Shown: positions 5,058 to 31,153 of the stretch, in pieces
How positions within the stretch are numbered: position 1 is the stretch's first letter
How the letters are laid out: every line of letters starts with the position of its first letter
NCBI GenBank assembly: GCA_030066015.1
Contig: JASJCL010000002.1
Span: forward strand, 1 to 64,000
Direction of reading: 5' to 3'
Length of the DNA stretch: 64,000 nt
DNA from: Desulfosarcinaceae bacterium
Lineage (GTDB): Bacteria; Desulfobacterota; Desulfobacteria; Desulfobacterales; Desulfosarcinaceae
Program-made: the position numbers and the translations under genes
The notes under the pieces: model-generated
What the model was told of the DNA's origin: nothing
Seen by the model: the letters and a program-made list of their open reading frames with translations, nothing else
Databases searched by the model: none

Positions 5058-6140
5058 ATGGCAAAGATTGATGCCTTTTTCAAACTGATGCATGACAGCA
5101 AAGCATCGGATCTCCATCTGTGCGCCGGTCAGCCACCGGCGTTGCGGATTCACGGTGACATTGAGCGCGTCAAGTACAAGACGCTCAGCAGTGACGAACT
5201 GCGCAGCATGCTCTACGAGATCACCCAAGAGGATAAGATCAAGGTGTTCGAAGAAACAGGTGACGTGGATTTCGGATATGAAATTCCCGGCCTGGCCCGC
5301 TACCGTGCAAACTTTTTTATGCAGAAAAACGGCATCGGGGCCGTTTTTCGTGAAATCCCCAGCTCCATCATGACCACCGAGCAGCTTGGCCTGCCGTCGG
5401 TGATCTCCAAACTGGCCAGTCTGCCCCGCGGGCTTGTCCTCGTGACCGGTCCCACCGGTAGTGGTAAATCGACCACGCTGGCAGCCATCATCGATGAGGC
5501 CAACCGCACCCGCAGTGACCACATTATCACCATCGAGGATCCCATCGAGTTCGTTCATCAGAGCCGCGGCTGCATCGTCAACCATCGCGAGCTGGGGCTG
5601 CACACCAAGAGCTTCTCGGCCGCCCTGCGCGGCGCGCTGCGTGAGGATCCCGACATTATTCTGGTCGGCGAGATGCGGGACTTGGAAACCATCTCTCTGG
5701 CCATCGAGGCGGCCTCAACCGGCCACCTGGTTTTCTCCACCCTGCATACCACCAGCGCGGCCCGCACGGTGGACCGTATCATTGAGGTTTTTCCTGCCGA
5801 GGAGCAGGGGCAGGTGCGATCCACGCTGGCCGATGGTATCCGCGCCATCGTCTCCCAGACCCTCTTCAAACGCATCGATCGTCCGGGGCGGGTACCGGCG
5901 CTTGAGATCCTCATCGCCACACCGGCGGTGCGCAATTTGATCCGCGAATCCAAATCCCATCAGTTGCCCTCCATGATGCAGACGGGACGCAAATACGGCA
6001 TGCAGCTCCTCGATGAAGCCATCATGGAGCTGTATAACAAGGGCTGGATCAGTGCCGACGACGCCTATTTGAAAGCAAACGACAAGGCCCGCTTCCGTCC
6101 CATGCTGAAAAGTCCACCTACGGATTTTACGGAGGCCTGA
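5058..6140 (+). CDS. pilT: type IV pilus retraction ATPase PilT
   Basis: A hexameric cytoplasmic ATPase that depolymerises pili for twitching. The 360-residue protein has the N-terminal PAS-like region (SDLHLCAGQPPALR), Walker A GPTGSGKST at 131-139, the Asp box (IITIEDPIEF), Walker B (DPDIILVGEMRD), a His box, and the PilT hallmark AVRNLIRES near residue 295. The ATG at 5058 has GGGAGAGG upstream. The pilU-like gene starts 85 bp after the stop, so the two form a retraction-motor operon. Confidence 0.93.
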   Translation: MAKIDAFFKLMHDSKASDLHLCAGQPPALRIHGDIERVKYKTLSSDELRSMLYEITQEDKIKVFEETGDVDFGYEIPGLARYRANFFMQKNGIGAVFREIPSSIMTTEQLGLPSVISKLASLPRGLVLVTGPTGSGKSTTLAAIIDEANRTRSDHIITIEDPIEFVHQSRGCIVNHRELGLHTKSFSAALRGALREDPDIILVGEMRDLETISLAIEAASTGHLVFSTLHTTSAARTVDRIIEVFPAEEQGQVRSTLADGIRAIVSQTLFKRIDRPGRVPALEILIATPAVRNLIRESKSHQLPSMMQTGRKYGMQLLDEAIMELYNKGWISADDAYLKANDKARFRPMLKSPPTDFTEA

Positions 6141-6225
6141 TCTTGATGGGTCAGCAACAGGAACCCTGGCGGCCGCGGGCAAGGGCCGTATTCACCGCAA
6201 TTATTCGGTTCATTGAGGCGTACCT

Positions 6226-7392
6226 ATGAAAAAGCAGGAGATCGACTATATCCTGACCCGAATGCTGGACTCTCACAGCAATGTCTCCGACTTGAATCTT
6301 ACGGTGGGAAAGCCCCTTCAGGTGGAGAGCTCCGGCACCCTCGTACCCGTGGATTTCAAACCCGTCATCGGCGAACTGACGCCCTATCAAACAGAGCTTT
6401 TTGCGCTCAACCTGATCAATGGCGATCGCCGACTCACCGAAGCGCTGCTCAGCGCCGGCTCCTGCGACCTCTCCTACACCCTGCCGGGAAAGGCGCGCTT
6501 CCGCGTGAATATCTTTTCACAGGGCAGCGGGCGCTACTCCATCGTCCTGCGAAGGCTCGAATCCAAGGTTCCCACCATCCGTGACATGAAGCTGCCGGAG
6601 TCCTTTTTTGACGTGTCCAAGGAGCTCAATGGGATCGTTTTTGTGACCGGTGCCACGGGTTCTGGTAAATCGACCTCTCTGGCGGCCATCCTCGAGGAGA
6701 TCAATGAACATAAATCGGTGCATGCGGTCACTCTCGAAGATCCCATTGAGTATCAACATCCCCACAAGAAGGCGACCTTCAACCAGCGGGAGTTGGGGCA
6801 AGATTTCGACACCTTCAGCAACGGACTCAGGGCCGCCTTACGCCAGGCACCCAAAGTGATTCTTGTGGGTGAGATGCGCGACCGCGAAACCGTAGAGATC
6901 GGGTTGAGCGCCGCCGAAACCGGCCACCTTGTGCTGACCACTCTGCACACCGTCGACGCCGGACAGACCATCAACCGCATCCTTGGTATGTTCAGCATCG
7001 AGGAGGAGAAGCAGATTCGCATCCGTCTCGCCGATACGGTCCGCTGGGTCATCAGCCAGCGCCTTCTCCCTAAAGTGGGCGGTGGGCGCGTGGCTGCCTT
7101 CGAGGTGTTGCGCAGCAACATCCGCGTCAAGGACGCCGTTCTCAACGGCGAGTCGGAGGGCAAGACGTTCTATGACATCATGCAGGCTGGCCGCCCCTTC
7201 GGCATGACCACCTTCGATGACCACATCGTGGGTCTGTACGAGCAGGGCCTCATCACCCAGGAGACGGCGCTGGCGTTCGCTTCGCACAAAGGCGTCGCCG
7301 GCCGCGGGATCGACAGCGTCAAGAGCGCCCGTGGCGAGGCCACCACCGATATCGACAATCTGGAGATCGATCGCGCTTGGGACAAAAGTTGA
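6226..7392 (+). CDS. PilU-like second retraction ATPase
   Basis: A 388-residue PilT/PilU-family ATPase: N-terminal SDLNLTVGKPLQV, Walker A GATGSGKST at 142-150, Asp box VTLEDPIEY, Walker B APKVILVGEMRD, and His-box TTLHTVDAGQTINRI. It lacks the AIRNLIRE motif of true PilT, having NIRVKDAVLNGES at that place, which points to PilU or another accessory retraction motor. The C-terminal tail (about 40 residues) is acidic and poorly conserved. It lies between pilT and a zinc-ribbon pseudo-receiver gene. Confidence 0.85.
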   Translation: MKKQEIDYILTRMLDSHSNVSDLNLTVGKPLQVESSGTLVPVDFKPVIGELTPYQTELFALNLINGDRRLTEALLSAGSCDLSYTLPGKARFRVNIFSQGSGRYSIVLRRLESKVPTIRDMKLPESFFDVSKELNGIVFVTGATGSGKSTSLAAILEEINEHKSVHAVTLEDPIEYQHPHKKATFNQRELGQDFDTFSNGLRAALRQAPKVILVGEMRDRETVEIGLSAAETGHLVLTTLHTVDAGQTINRILGMFSIEEEKQIRIRLADTVRWVISQRLLPKVGGGRVAAFEVLRSNIRVKDAVLNGESEGKTFYDIMQAGRPFGMTTFDDHIVGLYEQGLITQETALAFASHKGVAGRGIDSVKSARGEATTDIDNLEIDRAWDKS

Positions 7393-7438
7393 AACCAGGA
7401 CCGCAGCCTGAATTTAGCCTGCACGAAAGGACAATCGC

Positions 7439-8098
7439 ATGGAAGTCTTCTGTGAGTTCTGCCAATACAAAATCACCATCCCCGAAGGCAAAATTCCGCC
7501 GGGCAAGAGCGCCCGCGTGACCTGCCCTCAGTGCAAGGAGAAGATCGTCGTTAACGCACCGGCCGAAACCCCTCCAGCCGCCATGGAGGAGGATGTCTTC
7601 GAGGACTTTTTCAGTTTCACCGAAGATGAGGAGTTGGGGGAATCCGAGGACCAAAAGCCCTTCGATTTTGTTGAGGAGGAGGGGAAGACGGCCCTGCTCT
7701 GTGAATCGGACCCTGAAATTCTCGCCCAGATCAGCCAGGTACTGGAGGTGTTGGAGTACAACATCACCGTGCCGAAAAGCAGCCGCGACGCCCTAAAAAA
7801 GATGCGCTATCATGGGTACGACATCGTCATTGTGAATGAGATATTTGATACCCAAGATCCCGACATCAACGGTGTCCTCATCTACTTGGAGCGGCTGAAC
7901 ATGGAGGAGCGCCGCAACTTGTTTGTCACCCTGCTGAGCAGCCGCTTCCGCACGATGGACCAGATGGCCGCCTTTCAGAAGAGCGTCAACATTGTCGTCA
8001 ATTTGAACAACATCCAAGATTTTGATAAGATCTTGCGACGTTCGCTGGCGGACCATGACCTTTTCTACCGCATCTTCAGGGAGTGCCTGCCCCATTGA
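7439..8098 (+). CDS. zinc-ribbon protein with degenerate receiver domain
   Basis: A 219-residue protein. Residues 1-40 form an MJ0042-type zinc ribbon with Cys5, Cys8, Cys29 and Cys32. An acidic linker follows (DEELGESEDQK), then a receiver-like fold from about residue 77 (TALLCESDPEILAQISQVL). The phospho-acceptor position reads YDIVIVNEIFD, with Asn where Asp is expected, and the conserved Lys is also replaced (IVVNLNN). It is therefore probably a non-phosphorylated pseudo-receiver. It sits 46 bp behind the pilU-like gene, so a role in tuning pilus motors is inferred. The same type of N-terminal ribbon recurs in the receptors at 23328 and 29801. Confidence 0.7.
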   Translation: MEVFCEFCQYKITIPEGKIPPGKSARVTCPQCKEKIVVNAPAETPPAAMEEDVFEDFFSFTEDEELGESEDQKPFDFVEEEGKTALLCESDPEILAQISQVLEVLEYNITVPKSSRDALKKMRYHGYDIVIVNEIFDTQDPDINGVLIYLERLNMEERRNLFVTLLSSRFRTMDQMAAFQKSVNIVVNLNNIQDFDKILRRSLADHDLFYRIFRECLPH

Positions 8099-18464: not shown

Positions 18465-18552
18465 CTGATGATCCGTGACGAGGTGGTCAGAGGGGTGCTG
18501 GTGTCTTGGTACCAATTTGACATGCGGTTCTGGGTTTAATACTCGTTTCTTC

Positions 18553-19917
18553 ATGACGCCCCATCCTGCCATCCTGATCATCGATGACGACGAACTCTTC
18601 GTCGCCTCCTTGGCAGACCACCTGACCGAGAGCGGCTATCCTGTCCTTCAAGCATCCACTGGGACACAGGGTCTGGAGCTCTTCGAGGGGCAGCGTCCAG
18701 CCATTGTTCTGCTCGACCAGGAGCTACCGGATGGGAAAGGCCTCGACATCTGTCGCCGACTGCTCGAGATGGATCCCACGGTAAAGACCATTTTCATCAC
18801 GGCCTACGCAACGGTTCGAACAGCGGTGGATGCGATGCAGGCCGGGGCGTTCAACTATCTCACCAAACCATTCTCCATCGAAGAGCTGATGATCTCAATT
18901 CAAATGGCGCTGCGCAGCTCCCGTCTGGAGGGGCAACTGAAGGTGCACGCCTACGAGAAGGCGCAGATTCAACGTCATCAACGCCTGGTGGGATCCTCGC
19001 GGGTCATGCGGGACCTGCATGAACAGATCGCCTTGTTCGCGGCTTCTGATGCCGCAGTGCTGATCACTGGAGAGACCGGTGTGGGCAAGACCCTGCTTGC
19101 CAGGATCATTCACGACCTGCACGGCAAGCGGGGCGCATTTCTATCCGTCAACTGCGCCGCAATACCTGAAAACCTTATGGAGACGGAGTACTTTGGCCAC
19201 GAGAAAGGGGTGTTTACCGGAGCGGACGCCCGACGGGAAGGGCTCTTTGAGTTGGCCGATGGCGGCACCCTACTGCTGGACGAGATCGGTGACGTCCCGT
19301 TTCACCTCCAAGCCAAACTGCTGGCCACCATCGAAGAGGGCACCGTCCGGCGGGTGGGCGGGCGACGGTCAATTCCAGTGGATGTACGCATCATCGCCAC
19401 CACCAATCGTCCCCTCGAAACCGCCATACAGGAGCAGCGTTTTCGTGAAGACCTCTATTATCGCCTTGCTGTCGTAACCCTGCACATTCCCCCGCTTCGC
19501 CGACGACCCGAGGATATTCCAGAGTTGGCCGCCGCATTCATCCAACATTTTAGCAATACCCCCTTGCACATCCCGCCCGCACACATGGCGCGTCTGCGCA
19601 CCTATCCCTGGCGTGGCAATATCCGTGAACTGCGTAACGTCATTGAACGAGCCGTCTTGCTGCGCCGCGGCGATCGCATCTACCCCGCCGATCTGCTCTT
19701 TGAGGTCCCCCGGACCTCTCCTGAGAAGGCCGCCCCGCCCGGCGCAGTGGATGCTGCAGCAGCGAATCACCGTCTGGAAACAGTGATCGACGCCCATATT
19801 CAAAAAGTCCTGAAGCATACGGACGGCAACAAGACGCAAGCCGCCATGCGTCTGGGCATCTCCTTGTCGACCCTCAAGCGTCGGCTCAAGCGCGCCCCGA
19901 AAGTCGGCTCAAAATGA
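18553..19917 (+). CDS. sigma54-dependent response regulator (NtrC type)
   Basis: From the ATG at 18553, 454 residues. The receiver domain (1-120) has the acidic pair in IIDDDE and the phospho-acceptor Asp55 in IVLLDQELPDG. The AAA+ sigma54-activation domain has Walker A GETGVGKT, Walker B GGTLLLDEIGD, and the sigma54-contact loop as GVFTGA, where most members have GAFTGA. A Fis-type helix-turn-helix ends the protein (GNKTQAAMRLGISLSTLKRRL). A longer GTG start at 18475 is possible but adds sequence unlike a receiver. It heads the signalling island; the small kinase at 20134 is the natural partner. Its target promoters are not visible here. Confidence 0.9.
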   Translation: MTPHPAILIIDDDELFVASLADHLTESGYPVLQASTGTQGLELFEGQRPAIVLLDQELPDGKGLDICRRLLEMDPTVKTIFITAYATVRTAVDAMQAGAFNYLTKPFSIEELMISIQMALRSSRLEGQLKVHAYEKAQIQRHQRLVGSSRVMRDLHEQIALFAASDAAVLITGETGVGKTLLARIIHDLHGKRGAFLSVNCAAIPENLMETEYFGHEKGVFTGADARREGLFELADGGTLLLDEIGDVPFHLQAKLLATIEEGTVRRVGGRRSIPVDVRIIATTNRPLETAIQEQRFREDLYYRLAVVTLHIPPLRRRPEDIPELAAAFIQHFSNTPLHIPPAHMARLRTYPWRGNIRELRNVIERAVLLRRGDRIYPADLLFEVPRTSPEKAAPPGAVDAAAANHRLETVIDAHIQKVLKHTDGNKTQAAMRLGISLSTLKRRLKRAPKVGSK

Positions 19918-19953: not shown

Positions 19954-20133
19954 ACTATCTTCGATAGCTTACTTTTATCACACCTAAAAATTAAACCTAC
20001 GGGCTTGGTGACCGATAGAAAGATGTAGGTTAAAGTCTATTTTTCTCAGCGGCATGCGAATTGCTCATTCCAGCGGTATTTCCCGTCGGCTGAGTGCCTC
20101 GATTTCAGTTTGGAACCATTGCCGTTCCGATTG

Positions 20134-20865
20134 ATGGATGCCCTGGAGATGAAATCCGAGCAGCGAATAGGAGAACCCGTAGCGCCCATTGGGCAGATGC
20201 TCAGCGTGTATCGGCATCATCTGGGCAACTCGGTCAATGCCATCCAGATCACCCTGCAGGTATTGATGGAGAACCTCTCCCATTGGGAGGAGGCCAAGAT
20301 TCGGACCTATTTGGAACGACTCGACCTCATCGCCAATGAGCAGGGGAAGCTCCTGCAGGCACTTAAAGCCTATGCCCTTGACTGCGGCCCTCGGGAACCC
20401 CTACTGACCGACCAGGTATGGCGTCAGTTAACCGACATGGCAGCAGAAATGAGACAGGAGCATTCGGTCACCCTGCAACTGGGCGCCTCACCGCCGGCAG
20501 CCCGTGTGCGGGGAAATCTGCTTGCCTTGGAAATGATCTGGCGGCATCTCATCGAAAATGCCGTTGAGGCCATGCGATGGGTGGAAGCCCCGCAATTGAC
20601 GCTCCGGGCGGCAAGCGATGGGGGCTTCATTGTTTTCGAGATTTCGGACAATGGCATCGGTATCGATGCGGCGCATCTGGCCACTGCTCAGCTGCCTTTG
20701 TTCACAACTAAAAAAGGTAAAAACGGTATGGGGTTAGCCGTTGTTAGCAAGCTTGTCCGGGAGTTGACAGGGCAATTTGAAATGGATAGTGTTGCCGACC
20801 AAGGAACCCAGGTGCGGGTTCGGCTGTACGTTGAATCAGGCCACTCATCCGGGGAATCATTTTAA
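20134..20865 (+). CDS. small cytoplasmic histidine kinase
   Basis: About 243 residues, no membrane segment and no sensor domain. An N-terminal dimerisation helix carries candidate phospho-histidines in YRHHLGNSVNAIQ (His28/His29 from this start). The HATPase domain has the N box (LIENAVEAMR), G1 (DNGIGID), the F-box region LPLFTTKKG and G2 (KNGMGLAVV). The start is uncertain: ATGs at 20134 and 20149 and a TTG at 20110 are all possible and none has a strong ribosome binding site. It lies between the sigma54 regulator and the Roadblock/MglA pair. It probably takes its input from a separate protein, possibly the PAS protein at 25858 or the HAMP receptors. Confidence 0.82.
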   Translation: MDALEMKSEQRIGEPVAPIGQMLSVYRHHLGNSVNAIQITLQVLMENLSHWEEAKIRTYLERLDLIANEQGKLLQALKAYALDCGPREPLLTDQVWRQLTDMAAEMRQEHSVTLQLGASPPAARVRGNLLALEMIWRHLIENAVEAMRWVEAPQLTLRAASDGGFIVFEISDNGIGIDAAHLATAQLPLFTTKKGKNGMGLAVVSKLVRELTGQFEMDSVADQGTQVRVRLYVESGHSSGESF

Positions 20866-20879
20866 ACGGGAGGCAGACA

Positions 20880-21284
20880 GTGTCATACACATTGGAGAGC
20901 AAGCAGTTAGAGGCAATCGAGGATTTGCTTCAGCATGACCTGATCGACATGGGGGTCACTTGCGTTATACTCATCGATATGGCCGGCAATATTATAGCCA
21001 ACCTCGACAGCGGCGAACGCAAGCACGATATCTATTCTTTGGCCGCTCTGGCTGCCGGCAATTTTGGTGCCGTCAGTGCCATGGCCAAAATCATTGGTGA
21101 AGAAGAGTTTTCCCTCCTCTTTCATAAAGGTAAGAAGGAGAATATTCACTTCAGCCGCGTTGCCGAAGACTTTCTGATGGTTTCGATCTTTGGAAATGAT
21201 GTTTCACTTGGTTTCTTACGGTTAAAGGTGGCTGAAACGATCAAGGCGATCCGGAGCATCCTCGAGGAGATTACCGGTCAATAA
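20880..21284 (+). CDS. Roadblock/LC7-domain protein, candidate MglA regulator
   Basis: 134 residues with the Roadblock/LC7 pattern: an N-terminal helix, then a strand-turn (TCVILIDMAGNIIANLDSG), a central helix (AALAAGNFGAVSAMAKIIG), the strands FSLLFHKGKKENIHF and FLMVSIFG, and a terminal helix. The start is GTG at 20880 with GGGAGG upstream. The MglA gene begins 86 bp downstream. In Myxococcus and Thermus the Roadblock protein MglB is the GAP and spatial regulator of MglA; this gene is the likely counterpart, though shorter than MglB. Confidence 0.82.
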   Translation: MSYTLESKQLEAIEDLLQHDLIDMGVTCVILIDMAGNIIANLDSGERKHDIYSLAALAAGNFGAVSAMAKIIGEEEFSLLFHKGKKENIHFSRVAEDFLMVSIFGNDVSLGFLRLKVAETIKAIRSILEEITGQ

Positions 21285-21370: not shown

Positions 21371-21991
21371 ATGGCCTTTATCAATCCGAAAACCAAAGAA
21401 GTTCAAATCAAAATCGTCTACTATGGCCCAGGTCGCGGTGGCAAGACAACCAACCTCGAGTATATCTATAGTAAATTTAACCACCGCATCAAGTCCGAGA
21501 TGGTCTCGCTAAAAACGCATGGAGATCGAACGCTCTTCTTTGATTTTCTCCCTTTCGATATTGGTAAAGTCATGGGGCATACCCTTAAAGTTCAGCTCTA
21601 TACCGTGCCCGGGCAGGTTAAATACAATGCCACCCGTCGGGTGGTCCTACGAGGAGTGGATGGGATCGTTTTCGTAGCCGATTCGATGAAGGTGGTCCGA
21701 GAGAAAAACCTGTTGTCTCTTAAGAATCTTCACGAAAATCTAAAAGACTACAATCGTAGCATATTCCGGGTTCCATTGGTGCTCCAGTACAACAAGATGG
21801 ATCTGGCTGAGCAAGGAATTCCCCTGCTGTCATACGAGCGACTCGAAAAGGATCTCAACACCCAGCTTAAGGTTCCCTCTTTCCCTGCCAGTGCACTTAG
21901 AGGGACCAACGTCGCCAAGACGTTGAAGAAGATTATATCCATGACTCTGCCTTCCCTGCAGAGGAATCTCAAAAAAGAGGTGGTCAACTGA
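21371..21991 (+). CDS. MglA-type Ras-like GTPase
   Basis: 206 residues. P-loop GPGRGGKT at 19-26; switch region with Arg53 in HGDRTLFFDFLP; the G3 site is TVPGQ (78-82) instead of DxxGQ, as in MglA; the base-specificity motif NKMD is at 141-144. Arg53 and Gln82 match the catalytic residues known from MglA, so GTP hydrolysis is expected. MglA GTPases set polarity for motility systems, including type IV pili in Myxococcus. The stop overlaps the next start (TGATGG), showing translational coupling. A role on PilT/PilU in this organism is inference. Confidence 0.9.
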   Translation: MAFINPKTKEVQIKIVYYGPGRGGKTTNLEYIYSKFNHRIKSEMVSLKTHGDRTLFFDFLPFDIGKVMGHTLKVQLYTVPGQVKYNATRRVVLRGVDGIVFVADSMKVVREKNLLSLKNLHENLKDYNRSIFRVPLVLQYNKMDLAEQGIPLLSYERLEKDLNTQLKVPSFPASALRGTNVAKTLKKIISMTLPSLQRNLKKEVVN

Positions 21992-22644
21992 TGGAAAAGA
22001 ATGAAAACACCTTTACCGAAAAGGTAGAAAGCATTCTTGATGAGCTTTTTGCTGAGGACGATGAAACAGCGGAAACCGTAGAGGAGAGCGCGCATGTTGG
22101 GTATTATCCGCTGCGTTTTCTGAAAGCGACAGTGTTGTCCATCGACTGGGAGATCACTGACGAGGTGATGGGCCGTTTTATCGATCAAGTGGAACGGCTC
22201 AAGGAAGCCCATCAGGAGGATAAGACCATCCTACCCCTGCTGCAGATGCTGGGATCTACGGGGCAGCATATCCGCATTTTCAAAGAGAATGCGCACCCGA
22301 CGGCACTCAAGGTGCTCAAATCACTTTATCTCAGTCTCGAAAAGGTGATGTCTGAAACTGCGCCCAGTGAGGTTGAAAAAAGCCGCTTGTTGTTCCGTGA
22401 AATTCGTAAGTTTAAGGCACTCAAAGCCCAAATTGTGGAAGGCAACCTCGCATTGGCCAATCGCGTCAAACCTGCAGTGGTTCAGGCAGCATCGCCTGTC
22501 GAGGAAACCGCACCAGTAGTGACGACGAGCGACGACGGCGACGGGAATGCCATACTGGCCGCAATTGCGGAGTTAAAGCAATTTGTTGAAACCGAAATCC
22601 GACAACTGCGCGAAGAGATTCAGTCCTTGCGCACATCTGCTTGA
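21991..22644 (+). CDS. helical protein translationally coupled to MglA, unknown
   Basis: 217 residues, acidic and mostly helical. The N-terminus is acidic (ELFAEDDETAETVEES), the middle is a helical bundle (EVMGRFIDQVERLKEAHQEDKT), then a Pro/Val-rich linker, and the protein ends in a predicted coiled coil (ELKQFVETEIRQLREEIQSL). Its ATG overlaps the mglA stop, so the two proteins are made together and may interact. I do not recognise the family. Confidence 0.72.
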   Translation: MEKNENTFTEKVESILDELFAEDDETAETVEESAHVGYYPLRFLKATVLSIDWEITDEVMGRFIDQVERLKEAHQEDKTILPLLQMLGSTGQHIRIFKENAHPTALKVLKSLYLSLEKVMSETAPSEVEKSRLLFREIRKFKALKAQIVEGNLALANRVKPAVVQAASPVEETAPVVTTSDDGDGNAILAAIAELKQFVETEIRQLREEIQSLRTSA

Positions 22645-22759: not shown

Positions 22760-23230
22760 ATGAAGGTGCCCGGTGGTGATTTGTCAGCCATGGTGTATCG
22801 ACGACTGCAGCGTGACGACCTGGGCGAATTTGCCATGGACAGTCGCATGTTGACAGTATTGATGGATCTGGATGGCAAGCGTAGTCTGGCAGAGATCGCC
22901 CAGTTGCGCGGGTTCAGCACTCAGGTATTGCACGCCACCGTTGGGCGCCTGCTCGAACTAAGCCTGATCGCGCCGGTTGAGGTCGCCACCACGAAATTGG
23001 ACGCCGACTTCATCGGCTTCCTCAGGATGCAGATGTCCCAGGCCGTAGGCCCCATCGCCGAGATCCTTCTGGAAGACGCCGTCTATGACCTCGGTCATGA
23101 ACTGGATCAGTTCCCGGCAAATCAGGTTGCCGAGCTGGTGGATTATCTGGCGCGGGAGATTCAACGCCAGGACAAGGCCATTGCGTTCAAGCAGAACATT
23201 CTGCTCAAAATTCGTGAAAAGGGTTATTAG
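22760..23230 (+). CDS. winged-helix-like protein with C-terminal helical domain, unknown
   Basis: 156 residues. Residues 25-75 (RMLTVLMDLDGKRSLAEIAQLRGFSTQVL) look like a winged helix of the type used for protein-protein contact in signalling proteins. The second half (IGFLRMQMSQAVGPIAEILLEDAVYDLG) is a separate helical domain. A similar organisation appears at the C-terminus of the protein at 24797. GAGGTGAAG precedes the ATG. It sits between the MglA group and receptor 1. Function unknown. Confidence 0.68.
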   Translation: MKVPGGDLSAMVYRRLQRDDLGEFAMDSRMLTVLMDLDGKRSLAEIAQLRGFSTQVLHATVGRLLELSLIAPVEVATTKLDADFIGFLRMQMSQAVGPIAEILLEDAVYDLGHELDQFPANQVAELVDYLAREIQRQDKAIAFKQNILLKIREKGY

Positions 23231-23327: not shown

Positions 23328-24683
23328 ATGATAGTCATTTGTGAAGAATGCGGAAAGAAGTATAAGGTAGATCTGAACAAGATCCGAGGGACGCGGGCCA
23401 ATTTCAAGTGCTCCACCTGCGATCACATCATCGTTGTCAAAAAGCCCAGTGCCCCGGCAGCCCCCAAACCCCAGCCGCCGGCCCCTCAGACCGAGGCCCA
23501 ATTTACGCCACCAGCACCCGCTGACGCACGTCCTTCGCAGGGACAGATGATTCGACCGGATGCGGAGACCGCCGCGAAACCGGCGCCTACGGGTGTTGCC
23601 CTGCGTGAACCTGGCGGGAAATCGGGGCTCGGACTGGTGGCCAAAGCTGTCTGGATCATGTTGGTCGTCGGTATCATTCCGGTCGGTATCTTCGGGTGGA
23701 TCACCCTTTCGCAAGGTGAGAAACGCATGCGCGACGATACCAAGGCCCTCATTGCCGAAGTGACCCGTGGGTTGTCTGTGCATGTGGATGAATGGATCGA
23801 TAAAAATGTTCGGGTCCTCCTCGCCGCTGCCAACATCGGCGACATCCAGTCGATGGAGCCCCAGGCCCAGACTGAGATTCTGAAGTCCATCCAGCAAGCT
23901 TATCCCTGGATGTATCTGGTGTTTACGACGGACGCCAGCGGCGCCAATATCGCCCGCAATGACGGCAAGGCCCTGAGAGATTATTCCGATCGCCAATATA
24001 TCAAGGACATCATGGGCGGCAAGGAACTGGCCTGGCAGGTGCTAATCGGGAAAACCTCCAAAAAACCGGCCCTGGTGTTGGCGGTGCCCATCAAGCGCAA
24101 CGACCAAACCGTGGGCGTTCTGGCCAATGCCATGCAACTGGATGACATCTCCAAACGCATCGCCGCCTGGAAACGGGGGGACACCGGTTACGCCTTCCTG
24201 GTGGATGAACGCGGCAAGGTGGTGGCGCATCAATTGACCGATTATGTCCAGGAGCAGAAAAAACTCGGGATGCACCCATTGATTCAAAGTTACACCAGCG
24301 GTCGTAGTGGGTTTCACCACTTTAAGGACGTAGGTGGCGAGGAGCAGATTGGTCATGTCCGCGGCACGCGTTATGGCTGGGCACTGGCCATTCAACAGAG
24401 TGAAGCGGAGGCCTTTGCCGATCTCTATGCTGCTCAGCGTTTTGCCTATACGCTCTTGGCCTGTACGATTATTGCTGTCGTGCTGGTCGCCTGGCTTGCC
24501 GGCCGGGCGCTGGTGCAACCCATCAAGCGACTCACGGAGGCGGCCGATCGAATCAGTGTGGGGGATCTGGATGTGGAGATCGAGATTCACTCACGCGATG
24601 AGATTGCCGCCTTGGGCGAAGCCATCGCGCGAATGCAGGACAGTATTCGGCTTTCCCTTGAAAGACTGCGTCGTAGACGCTAA
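23328..24683 (+). CDS. zinc-ribbon / Cache / HAMP membrane receptor without output domain (receptor 1)
   Basis: 451 residues. An N-terminal cytoplasmic zinc ribbon (Cys5, Cys8, Cys28, Cys31) is followed by a Pro/Ala-rich linker. TM1 is at about 103-127; a periplasmic double-Cache ligand domain follows (YPWMYLVFTTDASGANIARN, RQYIKDIMGG, VLAVPIKRN). TM2 is at about 373-393 and a HAMP domain runs from 394 to the end. The protein stops right after HAMP with the tail RMQDSIRLSLERLRRRR. No kinase, cyclase or methyl-accepting module follows. Receptor 2 at 29801 has the same plan and tail. Output may go through the zinc ribbon, the terminal helix, or a partner such as the next gene. Confidence 0.82.
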   Translation: MIVICEECGKKYKVDLNKIRGTRANFKCSTCDHIIVVKKPSAPAAPKPQPPAPQTEAQFTPPAPADARPSQGQMIRPDAETAAKPAPTGVALREPGGKSGLGLVAKAVWIMLVVGIIPVGIFGWITLSQGEKRMRDDTKALIAEVTRGLSVHVDEWIDKNVRVLLAAANIGDIQSMEPQAQTEILKSIQQAYPWMYLVFTTDASGANIARNDGKALRDYSDRQYIKDIMGGKELAWQVLIGKTSKKPALVLAVPIKRNDQTVGVLANAMQLDDISKRIAAWKRGDTGYAFLVDERGKVVAHQLTDYVQEQKKLGMHPLIQSYTSGRSGFHHFKDVGGEEQIGHVRGTRYGWALAIQQSEAEAFADLYAAQRFAYTLLACTIIAVVLVAWLAGRALVQPIKRLTEAADRISVGDLDVEIEIHSRDEIAALGEAIARMQDSIRLSLERLRRRR

Positions 24684-24728
24684 TGAACTAACCAGGTCGC
24701 CGTTTTTGCGGCATACTTCTGACTACCT

Positions 24729-24754
24729 GCGGCCTTCGGGCCGCACTTGTTTTG
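24729..24754 (+). terminator. possible weak terminator or attenuator
   Basis: GCGGCC-TTCG-GGCCGC (24729-24744), a stable UUCG tetraloop hairpin, is followed by ACTTGTTTTG rather than a clean T run. It lies between receptor 1 and the DUF4388-like gene and may reduce read-through or stabilise the upstream mRNA end. Confidence 0.4.
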
Positions 24755-24796
24755 GGTCAAATGGATCGGGTACTTGCGTGAGGATGATGAGGACCT

Positions 24797-25801
24797 ATGG
24801 AAATCATTCCCAGGGGTGAGCCTGTCGTTACTGGACTGAACAGCTATTACCTCAAGATCAAACAACTGCTGGAACATTACCAGGGCGAGATCGGATCGGG
24901 CGGTATCTTTTTCACTGCCGCTTCCGGCAAGGGGGTTGTCTTCTTCGATCAAGATGAGATCCTCAGCGGTTATTTTCAGAACCGCAAGGAGGAACTCTCC
25001 GGTCGCAGAGCCATTGACTACCTCCTCGACCTTCCCGGTCATGTCAACTTCAGCGTCAGCGTTTATGCCATCGACCCAGAAGATGTCTATTTTTGGACCA
25101 GTATCTCTTCCGCAACCATCATGTATGATAACCTAAGTTCTGAATTTACAGATATTAAGGCGCTGCTGCGAAAATTGGCCCAAGAACGGCTTACCGGCTA
25201 CATCGATGTTGCGATTAAAAATGGGGACGACCGGGGGATGCTGTTCTTTCAGAATGGCCGCATCATGGGAGACTCCTACTCCTGGACGAGCGAGCCGGAT
25301 GACGAGGCCCGCAACCTGCTGATGGAGAAAACCAAATCGGACGGTGGCATCTTCAGAGTGTTCCGCATCGATCCCGGCCAGGTTGCCTCCGCGGCAGCCG
25401 CCGCTGCGCAAGAACCGCCAACGGCAGATCTGGCGCCAGAACAGACACCCGCCAAGGAAGATATTTTGCCGCTCCTGGCGACCCTTCTGTATGTGCTCGA
25501 GCGCATTGTCGACGCCAACAAGAAAATACGGGTGCCTTTCAGCACCCTTTTAAAGAAAAAGTTCATCGACAAAGCGGATCGCTACTCCTTTTTGGATCCC
25601 TTTGCCGCGGAGTTTGAATACAAGGACAGGCGCATCCATTACAGTGGCACCGAAGCGCCCGGCGTAGTGATCGAAGCGGTAACCGCCTCTGTGAGCGAGC
25701 TGGCGCACGAACTTGGGCTGCATGCCTTGCTCGTGCAAATGTTGGAGCCCTGGTTTAAGAAGTTTGCCGAGCAGATCGAGCGCTACCAGATCCGCGTCTG
25801 A
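24797..25801 (+). CDS. DUF4388/PATAN-like signalling protein
   Basis: 334 residues, cytoplasmic. Two successive beta-rich repeats resemble the DUF4388/PATAN fold: GGIFFTAASGKGVVFFDQDEI in the first and TGYIDVAIKNGDDRGMLFF, followed by QNGRIMGDSY, in the second. A Pro/Ala linker leads to a helical C-terminal domain (LLYVLERIVDANKKIRVP and ELGLHALLVQMLEPWFKKFAEQ). Such proteins occur with response regulators and GTPase systems in delta-type bacteria. It follows receptor 1 and may relay its HAMP output; that is inference. Confidence 0.65.
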   Translation: MEIIPRGEPVVTGLNSYYLKIKQLLEHYQGEIGSGGIFFTAASGKGVVFFDQDEILSGYFQNRKEELSGRRAIDYLLDLPGHVNFSVSVYAIDPEDVYFWTSISSATIMYDNLSSEFTDIKALLRKLAQERLTGYIDVAIKNGDDRGMLFFQNGRIMGDSYSWTSEPDDEARNLLMEKTKSDGGIFRVFRIDPGQVASAAAAAAQEPPTADLAPEQTPAKEDILPLLATLLYVLERIVDANKKIRVPFSTLLKKKFIDKADRYSFLDPFAAEFEYKDRRIHYSGTEAPGVVIEAVTASVSELAHELGLHALLVQMLEPWFKKFAEQIERYQIRV

Positions 25802-25857
25802 GCGTCTGAGGACCGAGCACCATATGGCCCAACCGACGGCACCCAATTGCGGTATCG

Positions 25858-26943
25858 ATGAAACCGCAGGCCAACCAGCCCGATTCCGGACCAACCTCGC
25901 ACAACCGATCTTCTGGATGGACCGCCTTGCAAGATTGCGTTGACAATATCCCCGCCGGGATTTACCGGGCCACGCTGGAAGGTCGCCTGGTGTATTGCAA
26001 TCAAAGCTTTGCGGCGCTCTTCGGATTCAAGAACAGACAGGCGCTCAAGGATTATCCGATCATCAACCTCTACCGGCACAAGCGGGATCGGGGTGCCATG
26101 CTGCAGGCGCTTCTGAAGCAGGGTCACATCACCGACCTCCCAATTCTGTTCAAGAAACGTGACGGATCCACCATTTGGTGCTGTCTCTCCGCAAAAGTTG
26201 TGTTCGACGAAGACGGCATGGCCATGCTCTTGGATGGACTGGTACGACCGACACCGGGACACTGGCCGGCTTCAACCGGTATCCTGGTGCCTGAAAAGGC
26301 CGGCTCCGAAGGGACCGCCCAATCGGCCTTGATCATAGCCAGCCTGGATCTCAGAGGGCGCGTCATCGATATCAACCGACCGGGTCTGGCACTCTTCGAT
26401 CTGCCCGGCGAAAGGGTATACGGCCGCCCTCTGCACGCCCTCATCGACCCAGCGTACAAAGACCTCTGCCTGCTGTTCCTCTCCGATCTCTTTCGGCTGG
26501 GCCAGCAGGAGACCTTACTACGGATCAAGGATGCCAAAGGACGGCTTCGCCAACTGGCACTGCAGGCCAGCCTCGTGACCCATGCGGGCAGGCCCCACCA
26601 TATTAAAGCGGTTGCCCGGGATGTGACCGAGCAGACGTCCCGACACCGACGCTCTCTTCGTCGTCAAAAACTGCAGGGGGTCCTGGAGATGGCCGGCGGG
26701 GTCGCTCACCGCATGAGTCAGCCGCTGACCATCATCACCAATATCGTTGAAGAACTGCGCCAGGGTCAGCCCCAAGCGCTCCGATCGCCTGACGACACCC
26801 GACTGCAGCGACTTTCCAACCAGATTCAGGAGTTGAATGGCCTCATCGGCAAAGTGAAGCGTATCAACAGCTATGCCACGACCGAATATGTGGACGGACA
26901 GGTGATCATTGACCTGGAACGCTCTTCCGGCTCAGACAGCTGA
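25858..26943 (+). CDS. tandem PAS protein with histidine phosphotransfer helix but no ATPase domain
   Basis: 361 residues. PAS 1 spans about 22-130 (NIPAGIYRATLEGRLVYCNQ), PAS 2 about 155-258 (GRVIDINRPGLALFDLPGE), ending with the PAC-like AVARDVTEQ. A HisKA-like helix follows with His284 in GVAHRMSQPL. The usual HATPase domain is absent and the protein ends about 65 residues later with an ordinary stop. Either the kinase at 20134 supplies the ATPase in trans, or this is a pure dimerising sensor. The start (ATG 25858) has no clear ribosome binding site. Confidence 0.78.
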   Translation: MKPQANQPDSGPTSHNRSSGWTALQDCVDNIPAGIYRATLEGRLVYCNQSFAALFGFKNRQALKDYPIINLYRHKRDRGAMLQALLKQGHITDLPILFKKRDGSTIWCCLSAKVVFDEDGMAMLLDGLVRPTPGHWPASTGILVPEKAGSEGTAQSALIIASLDLRGRVIDINRPGLALFDLPGERVYGRPLHALIDPAYKDLCLLFLSDLFRLGQQETLLRIKDAKGRLRQLALQASLVTHAGRPHHIKAVARDVTEQTSRHRRSLRRQKLQGVLEMAGGVAHRMSQPLTIITNIVEELRQGQPQALRSPDDTRLQRLSNQIQELNGLIGKVKRINSYATTEYVDGQVIIDLERSSGSDS

Positions 26944-26977
26944 AGCGAGTGTTGCGTAACTAGATAGGGAGGAAAAG

Positions 26978-27994
26978 ATGAAACGTCTCGTATTGATTGT
27001 TGACGACAATCAGGAGATGCTTTTTACCCTCAAAGACGGCCTCGAGAAGTATGCGGAAGCCTTCACCGTCATGATCTCGGGCGATGGTGTCGATGCCGTT
27101 CAAAAGATGCGACAACATGCGGTCTCCATGGTCGTCACCGACTTGAAAATGCCGCGCATGGACGGCATCTCGCTTCTCAGTACGATCACCAAGGATTTCC
27201 CCGGGACACCCGTCATCGTTATGACCGGATACATTACCAACGACGTACAACAAAGAGCACGCCAGTCGGGCGCGGCCGATTATATCGAAAAGCCCTTTTT
27301 AGTGGACGATCTGGCGACCAAAATATTCGCCGTGATACGGAATGAGGCGGATGGGGGAAAACTCCAAAACGTCACCCCCAGTATTTTCCTGCAATTGGTA
27401 TCCGCGGAGGAGAAGACGTGTACCATTCGACTTGCCTGCTGTGCCACCGGACTCAGTGGGGTGCTCTTTTTCCGAGCGGGCGAGTTGGTCCAAGCCCGCT
27501 ACGCGGGTCGCTCCGGAGAGGCTGCCGCTTTTGAAATCTTTGCCTGGGACGCCGTGGATCTGGCCATACAGAATCAATGTGATGTTCACACCAACGTCAT
27601 CAACAAGGACGTTCAGGCCGTCTTTCTGGAGGCCCTGCGCCGCAAAGACGAAACCGAGGCGGCCGCCCCCATAGCACCGACGCCCGAAAGCGCCCCAGCG
27701 ACCCCCACCGTTCCCGTAGGGGATGCCGGTGTCCTGAAGATCCGCCAGCAGATCGAAGCCGGCGTCGGTCCGCGCTCGGGGCTAGAAGACATCTATCAGG
27801 ACAATGCCTGGGCGGATCAACTGCGCCAGATGGCACGGCTGGGGGATGCACTCGGCGCCGGCCCGCTAAGGCTTGCTTACATCAACCGGGCCGAATCGGT
27901 CGATTTTATCCTGCTTCCCGGCGATCCCATTCATGTGGTCTCGATCCATCCGAAATCCCCCCGCGATCGTTTGGTGGAGGCCCTGTTGCGGTAA
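26978..27994 (+). CDS. response regulator with DUF4388/PATAN-like output
   Basis: 338 residues. An intact receiver domain (1-120) has acidic residues in IVDDNQE, the phospho-acceptor Asp55 in VVTDLKMPRMDG, Thr in IVMTGY and Lys in YIEKPF. The second domain (about 130-210) contains TGLSGVLFFRAGELVQARYAG, a DUF4388/PATAN pattern. After a Pro/Ala linker, the C-terminal part (LRLAYINRAESVDFILLPG) has a Roadblock-like strand pattern. GGGAGG precedes the ATG. It is probably phosphorylated by the small kinase of this island and acts by protein contact, since it has no DNA-binding domain. Confidence 0.8.
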   Translation: MKRLVLIVDDNQEMLFTLKDGLEKYAEAFTVMISGDGVDAVQKMRQHAVSMVVTDLKMPRMDGISLLSTITKDFPGTPVIVMTGYITNDVQQRARQSGAADYIEKPFLVDDLATKIFAVIRNEADGGKLQNVTPSIFLQLVSAEEKTCTIRLACCATGLSGVLFFRAGELVQARYAGRSGEAAAFEIFAWDAVDLAIQNQCDVHTNVINKDVQAVFLEALRRKDETEAAAPIAPTPESAPATPTVPVGDAGVLKIRQQIEAGVGPRSGLEDIYQDNAWADQLRQMARLGDALGAGPLRLAYINRAESVDFILLPGDPIHVVSIHPKSPRDRLVEALLR

Positions 27995-28079
27995 ACCCCC
28001 ATTTGGCAGGCTGACCGTCGTCATGGGGCGGGCCTACCGGATGACAAGGCCTCAGAAAACGGTTTCAAAGGTGGTGGAG

Positions 28080-28439
28080 ATGAAACAACATTTCGAAGAT
28101 TTACTCGGTACCGACGGTGTCTTGGGGCTGATGCTGCTGTCGTTCGAGGGCGAAGTCGTATTTACAGCTGATCCCACCAACCTGCTCCAAGCCGCGTCGG
28201 TGGTTGATGTCGCCTTGGAATTGTCCCGTTCCTTGACGGATGCCACCCAGGAGGCGGACATGGTTTTCCGCAACCTGCGGGTATATCTCCGCAAGACTCC
28301 CGCCGGCCCGCTGCTGGTAATCTTGGCCCCGACGGCCCCCATCGCGATGGTCCGGCTGCATTGTGACACCCTGATTCCCAACCTCAACCCCCAAGAACCC
28401 ACCAGCGGTTTGAAGCGCCTTCTCGGCCTATGGCGGTGA
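28080..28439 (+). CDS. second Roadblock-like protein
   Basis: From the ATG at 28080 (AGGTGGTGGAG upstream), 119 residues: GVLGLMLLSFEGEVVFTADP, a helix, MVFRNLRVYLRKTPAGPLLVIL and a terminal segment. The strand-helix order fits Roadblock/LC7, although it is more divergent than the protein at 20880. With two such proteins, homo- or heterodimers could regulate the single MglA. It lies between the PATAN-like response regulator and the binding lipoprotein. The start could be further upstream. Confidence 0.6.
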   Translation: MKQHFEDLLGTDGVLGLMLLSFEGEVVFTADPTNLLQAASVVDVALELSRSLTDATQEADMVFRNLRVYLRKTPAGPLLVILAPTAPIAMVRLHCDTLIPNLNPQEPTSGLKRLLGLWR

Positions 28440-28548
28440 CCAAATCGCGCCAGCTGTCAAACAGCGCACGGCGCCAGACCCTCGTCGAGGACCGGTCCAG
28501 CGCTTGCCTAGCTAATTGTCCAGTGAAACCTGAGTGGAAAGGATGACA

Positions 28549-29673
28549 ATGCGAAATCGTATGGCCTACCTATTGACGCTGGGGATCTTAATTGTCAGTT
28601 GTCTCTTGGCCTGCAACAATTCACGCAAGGATGACGCCCAAACCCGAAAGACGGATGCCAAAACGCTGGAAGCGCAGCTCAACCAGGCCCTGCCGGAAAG
28701 CAAACGCAAACGCGCGTTGGTACTACACAGCTATCATCCGGAATATGTGTGGGTGCAGGAGGTCAACAAGGGGATCGTGCAGGGGCTGTTAGAGGAGCGA
28801 TTCGAGGTGGAGAAGAATCTCAAGCTCGACTATTTTTATATGGACACGAAACGCAAGACCGACGAGAAGTGGAAACTTGAAGTGGCCGCCAAAGCCAAGG
28901 CCCATGTTGCTGCCACCAAACCCGATGTGGTGATCGCGGTAGACGACAATGCGCAGAAATATGTGGTCAAAGAGCTTGCCAATGGCGGCCCTCCCTTCAT
29001 TTTTTTGGGCGTGAACGCCGATCCCATGACCTACGGGTATTTGCGAAGTCTCGAAGTCCCGGGAGGTCAGGTGACCGGATCGATTGAACGGGAGCGCTTC
29101 GAGCAGAGCATCGCGTTGCTCCAGCGGCTGGTTCCGGGGGTTCGCAACTTGGCCATTTTATGTGACGACGGTCCCACCGGCATACCGATTATTGCACGGA
29201 TCGAGGAGAAGGCCGCCGCCATGGGGTTGAATATCGTCGCCGTCAAGCAGACCGGCAGCTTCAGCGAGTGGCAGCGGTACGTTCAGGAGATCCAAACACA
29301 GGCGGATGCCCTCCTCGTGATTGTCTATCACACCCTCAAAGATGATGCCGGTGCGCCGGTACACGAGAACACCGTTCTCAACTGGACCATCACCAACAGC
29401 AACCTGCCCGATCTGGGTTTTTGGTCATGGGCCGTGGAGGGGGGGCTGCTGTGCTCCGAGGCAATCTCCGGTTTCCAGCAAGGTCATTATGCTGCCACCG
29501 TTGCGGCCTACGTTCTATTGGGGCAATCTCCTGGGGAGTTTCCCGTTGACAAGCCCCAGCGAGGCGAGATGTGCGTCAATTTAGCGCGGGCAAAAATGTT
29601 GGGCATCGAGATCCCCTATGAACTGGCGCGAACCGCGACACTTTACCAGACTGTTGGCTCGGGTGACCAATGA
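28549..29673 (+). CDS. periplasmic ABC-type substrate-binding lipoprotein
   Basis: 374 residues. Lipoprotein signal ending in SCLLAC; the ATG at 28549 has AAAGG 7 nt upstream. The mature protein starts its binding fold with ALVLHSYHPEYVWVQEVNKG and has FIFLGVNADPMTYGY and VRNLAILCDDGPTG, as in the ABC_sub_bind (PF04392-like) family. No ABC permease or ATPase genes are nearby. It is flanked by signalling genes, so it may present its ligand to receptor 1 or 2 rather than feed a transporter. Confidence 0.78.
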   Translation: MRNRMAYLLTLGILIVSCLLACNNSRKDDAQTRKTDAKTLEAQLNQALPESKRKRALVLHSYHPEYVWVQEVNKGIVQGLLEERFEVEKNLKLDYFYMDTKRKTDEKWKLEVAAKAKAHVAATKPDVVIAVDDNAQKYVVKELANGGPPFIFLGVNADPMTYGYLRSLEVPGGQVTGSIERERFEQSIALLQRLVPGVRNLAILCDDGPTGIPIIARIEEKAAAMGLNIVAVKQTGSFSEWQRYVQEIQTQADALLVIVYHTLKDDAGAPVHENTVLNWTITNSNLPDLGFWSWAVEGGLLCSEAISGFQQGHYAATVAAYVLLGQSPGEFPVDKPQRGEMCVNLARAKMLGIEIPYELARTATLYQTVGSGDQ

Positions 29674-29800
29674 TGCCGGTCAGATCTACCTGTGAAAATA
29701 AGAGAACGCTTGATTCCGCAGTTCCCACAGGCAGCCTCAGCGGCGAATATACCTCGCGGCGTCTCAGCGCTGACCGTCAGTAGAGAAAAGGAGATTTTTG

Positions 29801-31153
29801 ATGTCGACAACTGAATCCTATTTGACCGCCGTCTGCCAAGCATGCGACAAACGCTACGGCATCTTGGCGCAGAATATCACCGGGAAAGGGGGCCGTTTTG
29901 TCTGCAGGAGCTGCGGTGCCATGGTCGTCGTTCACAAGGACGCGTCCGCGCCACCGGTGGAACATGGTGTGGAGAGCCTGCCGGATTGGGTCCATTCCGT
30001 TGAAAGCGATCGGACTGCAGAGATCGACGGCCAGGTGGGCACACCCGTGTCGGCGGTCTCGGATTCATCCCCTCATGCGACGCATCTGCTCGGTGCGGTA
30101 AGTGGTGAGCGAGCAGCCGCCGGGGGAGCGGCAACGGATCCCGCTTTTTACGGGACCGCCACGAGTGATCGGACTTCGGTCAGTGATGAACCGACCGTTA
30201 TTCGGGATCAGCAGGCCAAACCCGTATCGACCTCGGCTGATGCCGTCTCCGCACGCAGCGCCTACCGTTTCGGCCTCACCGCTAAATTTCTTCTGTTCAC
30301 CCTGACCCCGCTAGTCATCATCTCAGTTCTGAGCCTGCTCTATTCCATTGACAAGATGCTGACCTTCCAAAAAGCCACCATTGCGGAGAGCACTCATATC
30401 GTCAAAGGAATCAGCGAAGGGATGCTGCGCCAGATCGCCAACACCGTGGCCCGGCAGACACGTCAATACCTCTTCAGCCACCCAGATCTCAAACGGGAAG
30501 ATTTCAATCGCGATATCTACTTCAAGAAGGTGGCCATTCAGCGAGTGGGCATAACGGGCAATACCTCCCTGTATGAAGTCGCCGGTGCGGATGGCATCTG
30601 GCGGGCGTGGGCCGATATCGACGCGAAGCTCGTCGGCCGCAATCTGGCAGATTTGAAGGGCCAGCTCGGGAAGCACTTCGATACCTACTGGGAACTGCTC
30701 ACCGGTGTCAAGGCCGGCAAGATCGTCAGCGGCTACTACTATTGGCCCGACGATGAAGGCAATTTCCGAGAGAAGTACATGGTCTGCGCACCGGTCGAGG
30801 GGACCCCGTATGCGGTATCCGCTTCCATCTATGTCGACGAGATCACCGTGCCGTTGATGAAGATCGAAGAGCGCGGCACCGCTCTGGCCAGAGAGATGCG
30901 TAACAGCAATGCCGCCATCATGGGCGGGGGGCTGCTGCTGCTGGCGCTGATACTCTTCCTCTATGGCCGCGGACTGACCCAGAAGATCCATTCACTCTCG
31001 GCATGGGCCGACCGCATCAGCCTGGGGGAACTGGATCTGGAAACGTCTCCGGTGACTTCCAACGACGAGTTGGGCGAGCTCAGCGAGGCCATCGCCCGTA
31101 TGCAGGACAGCATCCGCCTATCCGTAGAGCGGCTGCGCACCCGACGGCGGTAG
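29801..31153 (+). CDS. zinc-ribbon / Cache / HAMP membrane receptor without output domain (receptor 2)
   Basis: 450 residues. A zinc ribbon at the N-terminus (Cys12, Cys15, Cys35, Cys38) is followed by a low-complexity linker of over 100 residues. TM1 is around residues 165-187, with a periplasmic Cache-type domain after it (GNTSLYEVAGADGIWRAWAD, GKIVSGYYYWPDDEGNF). TM2 (GGGLLLLALILFLYG) and HAMP follow. The protein ends with RMQDSIRLSVERLRTRRR, nearly the same tail as receptor 1, with no output module. AAAAGGAGA precedes the ATG. It is the last gene of the island and converges on an acyl-CoA synthetase gene. Confidence 0.8.
   Translation: MSTTESYLTAVCQACDKRYGILAQNITGKGGRFVCRSCGAMVVVHKDASAPPVEHGVESLPDWVHSVESDRTAEIDGQVGTPVSAVSDSSPHATHLLGAVSGERAAAGGAATDPAFYGTATSDRTSVSDEPTVIRDQQAKPVSTSADAVSARSAYRFGLTAKFLLFTLTPLVIISVLSLLYSIDKMLTFQKATIAESTHIVKGISEGMLRQIANTVARQTRQYLFSHPDLKREDFNRDIYFKKVAIQRVGITGNTSLYEVAGADGIWRAWADIDAKLVGRNLADLKGQLGKHFDTYWELLTGVKAGKIVSGYYYWPDDEGNFREKYMVCAPVEGTPYAVSASIYVDEITVPLMKIEERGTALAREMRNSNAAIMGGGLLLLALILFLYGRGLTQKIHSLSAWADRISLGELDLETSPVTSNDELGELSEAIARMQDSIRLSVERLRTRRR

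Follow-up and report, generated by a model that had tools for sequence, protein, structure and literature searches.

We analysed a 64,000-nucleotide stretch of DNA (the window) from a Desulfosarcinaceae bacterium (GenBank assembly GCA_030066015.1, contig JASJCL010000002.1, positions 1 to 64,000), which encodes two transmembrane (TM) receptors, receptor 1 and receptor 2, that stop shortly after their HAMP domain. A small gene directly upstream of receptor 1 codes for a protein whose first half is a winged helix and whose second, helical half resembles STAC proteins (hereafter wHTH-STAC, from winged helix-turn-helix), and genes of this type lie next to HAMP-ended receptors elsewhere in the phylum. 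We consider it rather probable that these receptors find their partner in trans, with the HAMP tail acting on the STAC half of this separate protein, which would in turn feed a module of MglA, roadblock and PATAN proteins.

Receptor architecture

Both receptors run from an N-terminal ribbon through a linker, a TM segment, a sensor and a second TM segment (TM segments assigned by eye) to HAMP and a stop codon, an order that an earlier note on this DNA had described with correct coordinates and frames. Both reading frames are intact; receptor 2 starts at ATG 29801 or, alternatively, at a TTG one codon upstream. The earlier note had given each receptor a zinc ribbon and a Cache sensor, which holds for receptor 1, where Pfam matches Zn_ribbon_4 at residues 1–35 (39.2 bits, cut-off 30.3), dCache_1 at 135–355 and HAMP at 391–441. 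Receptor 2 matches HAMP at 388–439 and has the four ribbon cysteines, but its ribbon scores 17.8 bits, below the Pfam cut-off, and the Pfam scan gave no Cache match in its sensor; in receptor 2-type homologues, all Pfam Cache matches are below cut-off. The sensor of receptor 2 is of another type than that of receptor 1 and is 40% identical (75/187) to that of a relative, L047. Identity between the two receptors is 55% (41/75) from the second TM segment through HAMP and tail, 30% (12/40) in the ribbon and 31% (49/159) in the sensor.

The shared tail that the note had described includes RMQDSIR, which is part of the second HAMP helix and lies within the Pfam match; the real extensions measure 10–11 residues, and these are indeed alike. 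A stop codon follows in both receptors, with no Pfam match after HAMP to a signalling domain of methyl-accepting chemotaxis proteins (MCPs) or to HisKA or HATPase. The NCBIfam gliding_GltJ model was not among the 25 matches listed for receptor 1, nor among the 5 families of receptor 2.

A conserved stop after HAMP

To place this architecture in its genome, we read the C-terminal side of 56 of the 57 PF00672 matches in the 5.7-Mb assembly, leaving out C12:8939, which is below cut-off. Only 3 of the 56 end within 12 residues of the stop, namely receptor 1 (10), receptor 2 (11) and C41:87502 on contig 41 (5), and all three proteins begin with a CxxC..CxxC ribbon. Among the others, the shortest extensions measure 68 and 84 residues, and one further frame, on contig C15, is open for 68 residues to the contig end. 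Most other HAMP proteins of the genome carry an output domain after HAMP. One exception to the note's premise that HAMP normally signals to an attached module, which the note had not mentioned, is Af1503 with its STAC partner Af1502, described in the accessible text of PMC4834066.

Close relatives of the receptors occur in many Desulfobacterales genomes, and the relatives are bacterial, from Desulfobacterales and other deltaproteobacterial metagenome-assembled genomes (MAGs). Among the distinct ribbon-bearing open reading frames (ORFs) whose HAMP end was matched, 56 of 57 stop no more than 6 residues from where the query ends, an unfiltered count from which 6 further ribbon-bearing ORFs with an unmatched HAMP end (including L086) were set aside. 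The sole exception, L067, reads on into the neighbouring double-PATAN protein and has no kinase or MCP domain. Homologues with a kinase or MCP domain after HAMP, which the note had named as the mark of degraded copies, were thus sought and not found among the 57 ORFs. Of 21 ribbonless ORFs in the same loci, 2 stop early (L018, L019) and 19 have long extensions.

The end of the protein is also the best conserved of the regions compared. Mean information over 56 rows, which are unweighted related sequences preselected for ribbon and early stop, is 3.38 bits for the last 20 residues, 2.95 for HAMP, 2.89 for the ribbon, 2.05 for the sensor and 1.27 for the linker. Conservation in columns 5–12 and 431–438 is inflated because relatives were searched with the peptides CEECGKKY and EAIARMQD, whereas the ten post-HAMP residues lie outside every search peptide and average 3.4 bits. 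As judged from sequence, the early stop is a conserved feature; decay is rejected because 56 of the 57 relatives end at the same point, and the note was right that chance truncation does not account for the shared tail.

Reduced forms were seen in MAGs. A 70-residue protein at L086:1246-1458 consists of a zinc ribbon, a linker and IERLRRRR and occupies the receptor slot of a similar cluster, and the receptors of L055 and L078 lack most of the sensor.

The wHTH-STAC protein and its pairing with HAMP-ended receptors

The wHTH-STAC gene beside receptor 1, which the earlier note had overlooked among possible partners, encodes a winged helix and then a helical domain with a Gly-Pro that recurs in 35/35 rows checked. 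Its AlphaFold2 model has a mean predicted local distance difference test (pLDDT) score of 84.5. The modelled helical half overlays Af1502 (5a1q) over 69/69 residues (Z 7.6, 2.9 A, 19% identity), a match that is marginal alone, and a profile of this half places Af1502 first among PDB sequences at a marginal E of 0.014, with GPIA aligned with GPIA. STAC identity becomes likelier because the context matches the pair in PMC4834066, a HAMP-ended receptor and a STAC gene, which was not selected for in our searches; from the marginal statistics and this context together, we infer that the helical half is a STAC homologue. In 4/4 long-form wHTH-STAC proteins scanned, a DUF4388/PATAN domain stands in front. 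The winged-helix half resembles NPRL2 of GATOR1 (Z 10.0, 72 residues, 2.5 A, 14% identity; sequence E 0.29), a mere lead because winged helices are common.

Run by itself against 297 genomes of the phylum, the wHTH-STAC profile gave 48 matches in 41 genomes and 29 new loci with ~1.5 kb of flank. At 23 of these 29 loci an ORF with a HAMP domain is encoded on the same strand, and all 23 such ORFs end 10–19 residues past HAMP; 18 lack a ribbon, 4 have one and 1 was not classed. HAMP was called here with our own profile, and 4 of 5 checked cases score above the Pfam cut-off (L230 does not). Because the wHTH-STAC profile was built from receptor-linked genes, close matches are biased and the distant ribbonless ones less so. 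The median gap between the two genes is 82 bp in 35 Desulfobacterales-type pairs and 28 bp in 21 phylum pairs, with some overlaps. In the genome studied here, 2 of 3 wHTH-STAC genes adjoin a HAMP-ended receptor, and receptor 2 has no wHTH-STAC gene of its own alongside.

The tails also resemble one another across this wider set. All 23 phylum tails fit the loose pattern S-[LIVM]-x-x-[AS]-[ILMV]-x-x-[LIVM], which was drawn up after the data had been seen. The Af1503 construct fits it as well with SLKVAMESL, of which the final residues may be vector, and Af1503 is the closest PDB sequence to the tail of L085.

Three further observations concern wHTH-STAC genes. L146 and L147 are stand-alone wHTH-STAC pairs with the receptor tail TSLRLAMNRLRRKR versus the operon-type D/E-SIRLSIERLRRRR, which would fit cognate pairing. 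The third wHTH-STAC-type protein of this genome (L235:2043-3215, 390 residues, profile 60 bits) is divergent to an MCP-like gene and has no HAMP-ended receptor alongside. At L239:1653-3557, a wHTH-STAC gene without a HAMP-ended receptor is convergent with a neighbour that resembles, by eye, an SLC5-type (sodium-solute) symporter, which brings the SLC5-STAC link to mind.

The surrounding gene cluster

The two receptors lie in a run of same-strand genes (Table 1), for which we scored neighbours in 51 loci wherever the flank was long enough, excluding L088, an unrelated match. The homologue search and neighbour inspection that the note had proposed thereby gave a conserved MglA/PATAN/wHTH-STAC cluster: wHTH-STAC is present in 39/48, COIL in 30/41, MglA in 28/37, RBL1 in 25/35, PATAN1 in 31/44, REC-PATAN in 30/36, RBL2 in 28/34 and a PilB-like ATPase in 18/31. 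Of the 25 loci flanked by 5 kb on either side, 21 hold an MglA of any kind. Among the ten ribbonless clusters considered below, the REC-PATAN matches of L244 and L245 (~30 bits) may be REC alone. Going by its Ras-type GTPase match and its roadblock neighbour, the gene at 21371-21991 is of the MglA type. The PilB-like ATPases have T2SSE and MshEN domains in two relatives scanned.

Table 1 Features of the receptor cluster in the window.
Feature	Position	Strand	Remarks
Sigma-54-dependent response regulator	18475..19917	+	Cluster front
HisKA-HATPase_c protein	20110..20865	+	Cluster front; HisKA below cut-off
RBL1, roadblock/MglB-type	20880..21284	+	PF03259, 36 bits
MglA-type small GTPase	21371..21991	+	PF00071, 35.1 bits (cut-off 21.6); roadblock PF03259 gene adjoins
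COIL, conserved operon protein	21991..22644	+	No Pfam match
wHTH-STAC protein	22760..23230	+	Proposed direct partner of HAMP tail; ends 97 bp upstream of receptor 1
Winged-helix half of wHTH-STAC protein	22760-22984		Residues 1-75
STAC-like helical half	23000..23221	+	Residues 81-154; motif VGPIA
Receptor 1	23328..24683	+	Zinc ribbon - linker - TM - dCache_1 - TM - HAMP - 10-residue tail; 451 residues
Zinc ribbon, receptor 1	23328..23432	+	Zn_ribbon_4; MJ0042-type, TIGR02098 24.2 bits (cut-off 20.9)
HAMP, receptor 1	24498..24650	+	Pfam PF00672 match
Tail past HAMP, receptor 1	24651..24680	+	LSLERLRRRR; mean 3.4 bits per column, 56 relatives
PATAN1, PATAN/DUF4388	24797..25801	+	Pfam 19.1 bits, below cut-off; two beta-rich repeats and helical end; fused to receptor in L067
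PAS-PAS-HisKA protein without ATPase domain	25858..26943	+	HisKA below cut-off
REC-PATAN response regulator	26978..27994	+	
RBL2, weak roadblock protein	28020..28439	+	14 bits, below cut-off
ABC_sub_bind periplasmic binding protein	28534..29673	+	Directly upstream of receptor 2
Receptor 2	29801..31153	+	Zinc ribbon below cut-off - linker - TM - sensor, type unproven - TM - HAMP - 11-residue tail; 450 residues
HAMP, receptor 2	30962..31117	+	Pfam PF00672 match
Tail past HAMP, receptor 2	31118..31150	+	LSVERLRTRRR

The slot between wHTH-STAC and PATAN1 is occupied by a dCache_1 receptor in the window and in L038, and by receptors with other sensors in L046, L047, L080 and L085; the sensor is therefore exchanged while ribbon and HAMP end are kept. 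The receptors of L054 and L069 stand alone within the stretch seen. Beside receptor 2, the ABC_sub_bind protein may be a ligand carrier for that receptor.

The conserved operon protein at 25858-26943 combines two PAS domains with a HisKA-like phosphoacceptor; with a REC-PATAN gene adjoining and a separate HisKA-HATPase protein at 20110-20865, it is possibly phosphorylated in trans. Further upstream in the window, two PilT-family genes occupy 5058-7392 (TIGR01420, over cut-off). A protein that begins with a zinc-ribbon-like stretch (26.2 bits, below cut-off) and has a weak response-regulator match follows them, within 5058-8098.

Where the signal may go

In the mechanism that we favour, a signal from the periplasm would move both the TM helices and the HAMP bundle. 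A pair of second HAMP helices, continued by the conserved Arg-rich tail as a parallel two-helix structure, would then act in trans on the STAC half, and its carrier would pass the signal to the PATAN/MglA module, with output at a pilus-type ATPase. Receptor 2 would share the wHTH-STAC partner of receptor 1, and the zinc ribbon would be an addition in Desulfobacterales-type systems that might provide another contact with the GTPase module. Physical contact between tail and STAC half, the direction of the signal and the pilus output are what we infer here; type IV pilus activity or polarity is the likely output because the module holds MglA, roadblock, PATAN and often a PilB-like ATPase. More speculatively, and only as a tentative idea, the NPRL2-like winged helix might point to a path from a bacterial TM receptor to a Ras-like GTPase, NPRL2 being part of GATOR1, a GTPase-activating protein (GAP) complex for Rag GTPases. 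Receptors that bind ligands but have no enzyme of their own would rely on a detachable HAMP-STAC contact. In this scheme wHTH-STAC would help to determine which nucleotide MglA carries and thereby guide pili in the direction of a chemical signal, and one module would serve several receptors, much as CheA serves several chemoreceptors.

Several observations weigh against the proposed tail-STAC route. The Af1502 match is marginal, at E 0.014 versus 0.055 for the runner-up; the full wHTH-STAC profile finds Af1502 at E 0.028 and rank 10; and Z 7.6 is within the range of unrelated helical bundles. Six of the 29 wHTH-STAC loci have no HAMP-ended receptor in the flank (L209, L211, L213, L214, L215, which is near a contig end, and L229), so the notion that wHTH-STAC always adjoins a receptor was rejected. 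L213/L236 is a whole module without a receptor, while at L043, L055, L078 and L086 the receptor is present and the wHTH-STAC gene short or missing. On the output side, the window's cluster has no PilB-like ATPase, the best match in the genome lying on another contig and looking like a different ATPase. MglA occurs in only 3 of 10 ribbonless clusters examined, picked from loci already known to hold the receptor/wHTH-STAC pair, and the GTPase link is therefore not general. Finally, in L067 receptor and PATAN1 form one open frame, joined within the second HAMP helix, which favours PATAN1 as the effector.

That alternative, in which the tail acts on the next gene, PATAN1, and wHTH-STAC regulates something else, has in our view a minor though appreciable chance, and PATAN1 does lie downstream of the receptor in 31/44 loci. 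L067, however, is a single MAG, and since the join removes the tail and the first residues of PATAN1, a deletion or a faulty assembly may account for it. Apparent open frames of ~760–830 residues had suggested many receptor-PATAN1 fusions, a candidate rejected on reading the DNA of 12 other loci with seemingly long or stop-bearing frames: a stop follows the tail in 12/12, which leaves L067 as the only fusion standing. No match spanning both halves appeared among the matches listed, and seven receptor regions have wHTH-STAC without PATAN1 (L145-L150, L153). For the L067 junction, the predicted structure is too unreliable to be used (pLDDT <60 in the HAMP part), and no PDB entry matched its HAMP-PATAN1 model at E ≤0.001 in a fold search. 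A DUF4388 protein, the partner class that the note had considered, stays a possible second contact of the tail.

The note had also offered a return of the signal to the zinc ribbon. In our version of this route, the ribbon would bind MglA or MglB and HAMP would merely set the ribbon spacing in the dimer; to this we assign a slim chance. The ribbon is conserved, its 2.89 bits being partly biased by the search peptides, and its best PDB match after two PRDM9 entries, whose scores are sums over repeats none of which passes by itself, is the AgmX/GltJ ribbon (7zok, E 0.012). The NCBIfam GltJ model touches residues 3–64 of the relative L046 at 17.4 of 450 bits, far below cut-off. The GltJ ribbon reportedly acts with MglA and MglB in Myxococcus, so the weak similarity makes such a contact attractive. 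Yet the ribbonless relatives (18 of 23) keep HAMP end, tail and wHTH-STAC neighbour, and L018 and L019 have lost the ribbon and kept the HAMP end, so ribbon feedback is not needed; as MglA also occurs in ribbonless clusters (3/10), a rule that the ribbon goes with MglA was likewise rejected. It is improbable that the tail, though very basic (RLRRRR), binds the membrane or just anchors the dimer, making the receptors sinks or scaffolds with no defined protein partner, as this would leave unexplained the wHTH-STAC pairing and the hydrophobic tail spacing common to ribbonless relatives. That the receptors are kinases or MCPs which lost the output domain present in most other HAMP proteins of the genome is barely credible, given the common stop in 56/57 relatives and post-HAMP columns at 3.4 bits against 2.05 for the sensor, with no search peptide covering them. 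Of the routes that the note had left open, signalling to a separate protein through the tail helix is thus the best reading.

Comparison with known systems

Af1503 is the source of many solved HAMP structures, and where HAMP-ended receptors send their signal is a standing puzzle. The pairing described here extends the Af1503-Af1502 type to bacteria, in numbers sufficient for coevolution analysis and genetics, provides a concrete testable pair in the HAMP tail and STAC, and suggests a route by which chemical sensing could act on an MglA-type switch with neither kinases nor MCPs. Among the papers searched, none joined 'STAC domain' with PATAN, DUF4388 or MglA, a search on GltJ gave no match, and nothing relevant to the combination of zinc ribbon, HAMP, Cache and MglA was among the matches listed.

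According to the accessible text of PMC4834066, Af1503 of Archaeoglobus fulgidus is an archaeal receptor whose only cytosolic part is HAMP. Receptors of this type are often coupled to short proteins like Af1502, the genomic partner of Af1503; these proteins are called STAC and have an LGPx(x)A motif in common. Our receptors likewise have HAMP as the last domain, 10 or 11 residues before the stop, with no effector and with similar HAMP and tail sequences, and receptor 1 lies 97 bp from a gene whose small helical product has a GPx(x)A-type motif (VGPIA). They differ in being bacterial, in their N-terminal zinc ribbon, and in a STAC half that is joined to a winged helix, with PATAN as a further fusion partner in other orders. 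The archaeal family has transport-enriched neighbours, whereas the main neighbours here are MglA, PATAN and pilus-type ATPase genes, with one transport-type gene (28534-29673) by receptor 2. In CbrA-type SLC5-STAC histidine kinases, the available part of PMC13022988 places STAC at the membrane side as a proposed relay, in cis with transporter and kinase; here STAC is a separate protein.

The adjacent MglA, roadblock and PATAN genes recall the MglA/MglB polarity module of PMC4316618, the accessible portion of which reports PATAN genes near some Group 1 and 5 mglA genes and describes no HAMP-ended receptor or STAC protein for that module. With GltJ/AgmX (PDB 7zok) our receptors share a weakly similar N-terminal ribbon, although L046 scores far below the cut-off of the NCBIfam GltJ model and GltJ is no HAMP receptor. 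PATAN-REC proteins interact with PilB1 in Synechocystis, as stated for PixE in the accessible part of PMC9090330, which, like the PATAN genes near some mglA genes, lends support from the literature to the proposed output at a pilus-type ATPase. The REC-PATAN protein of our cluster also joins REC and PATAN in one protein, in the reverse order, and relatives encode a PilB-like ATPase nearby.

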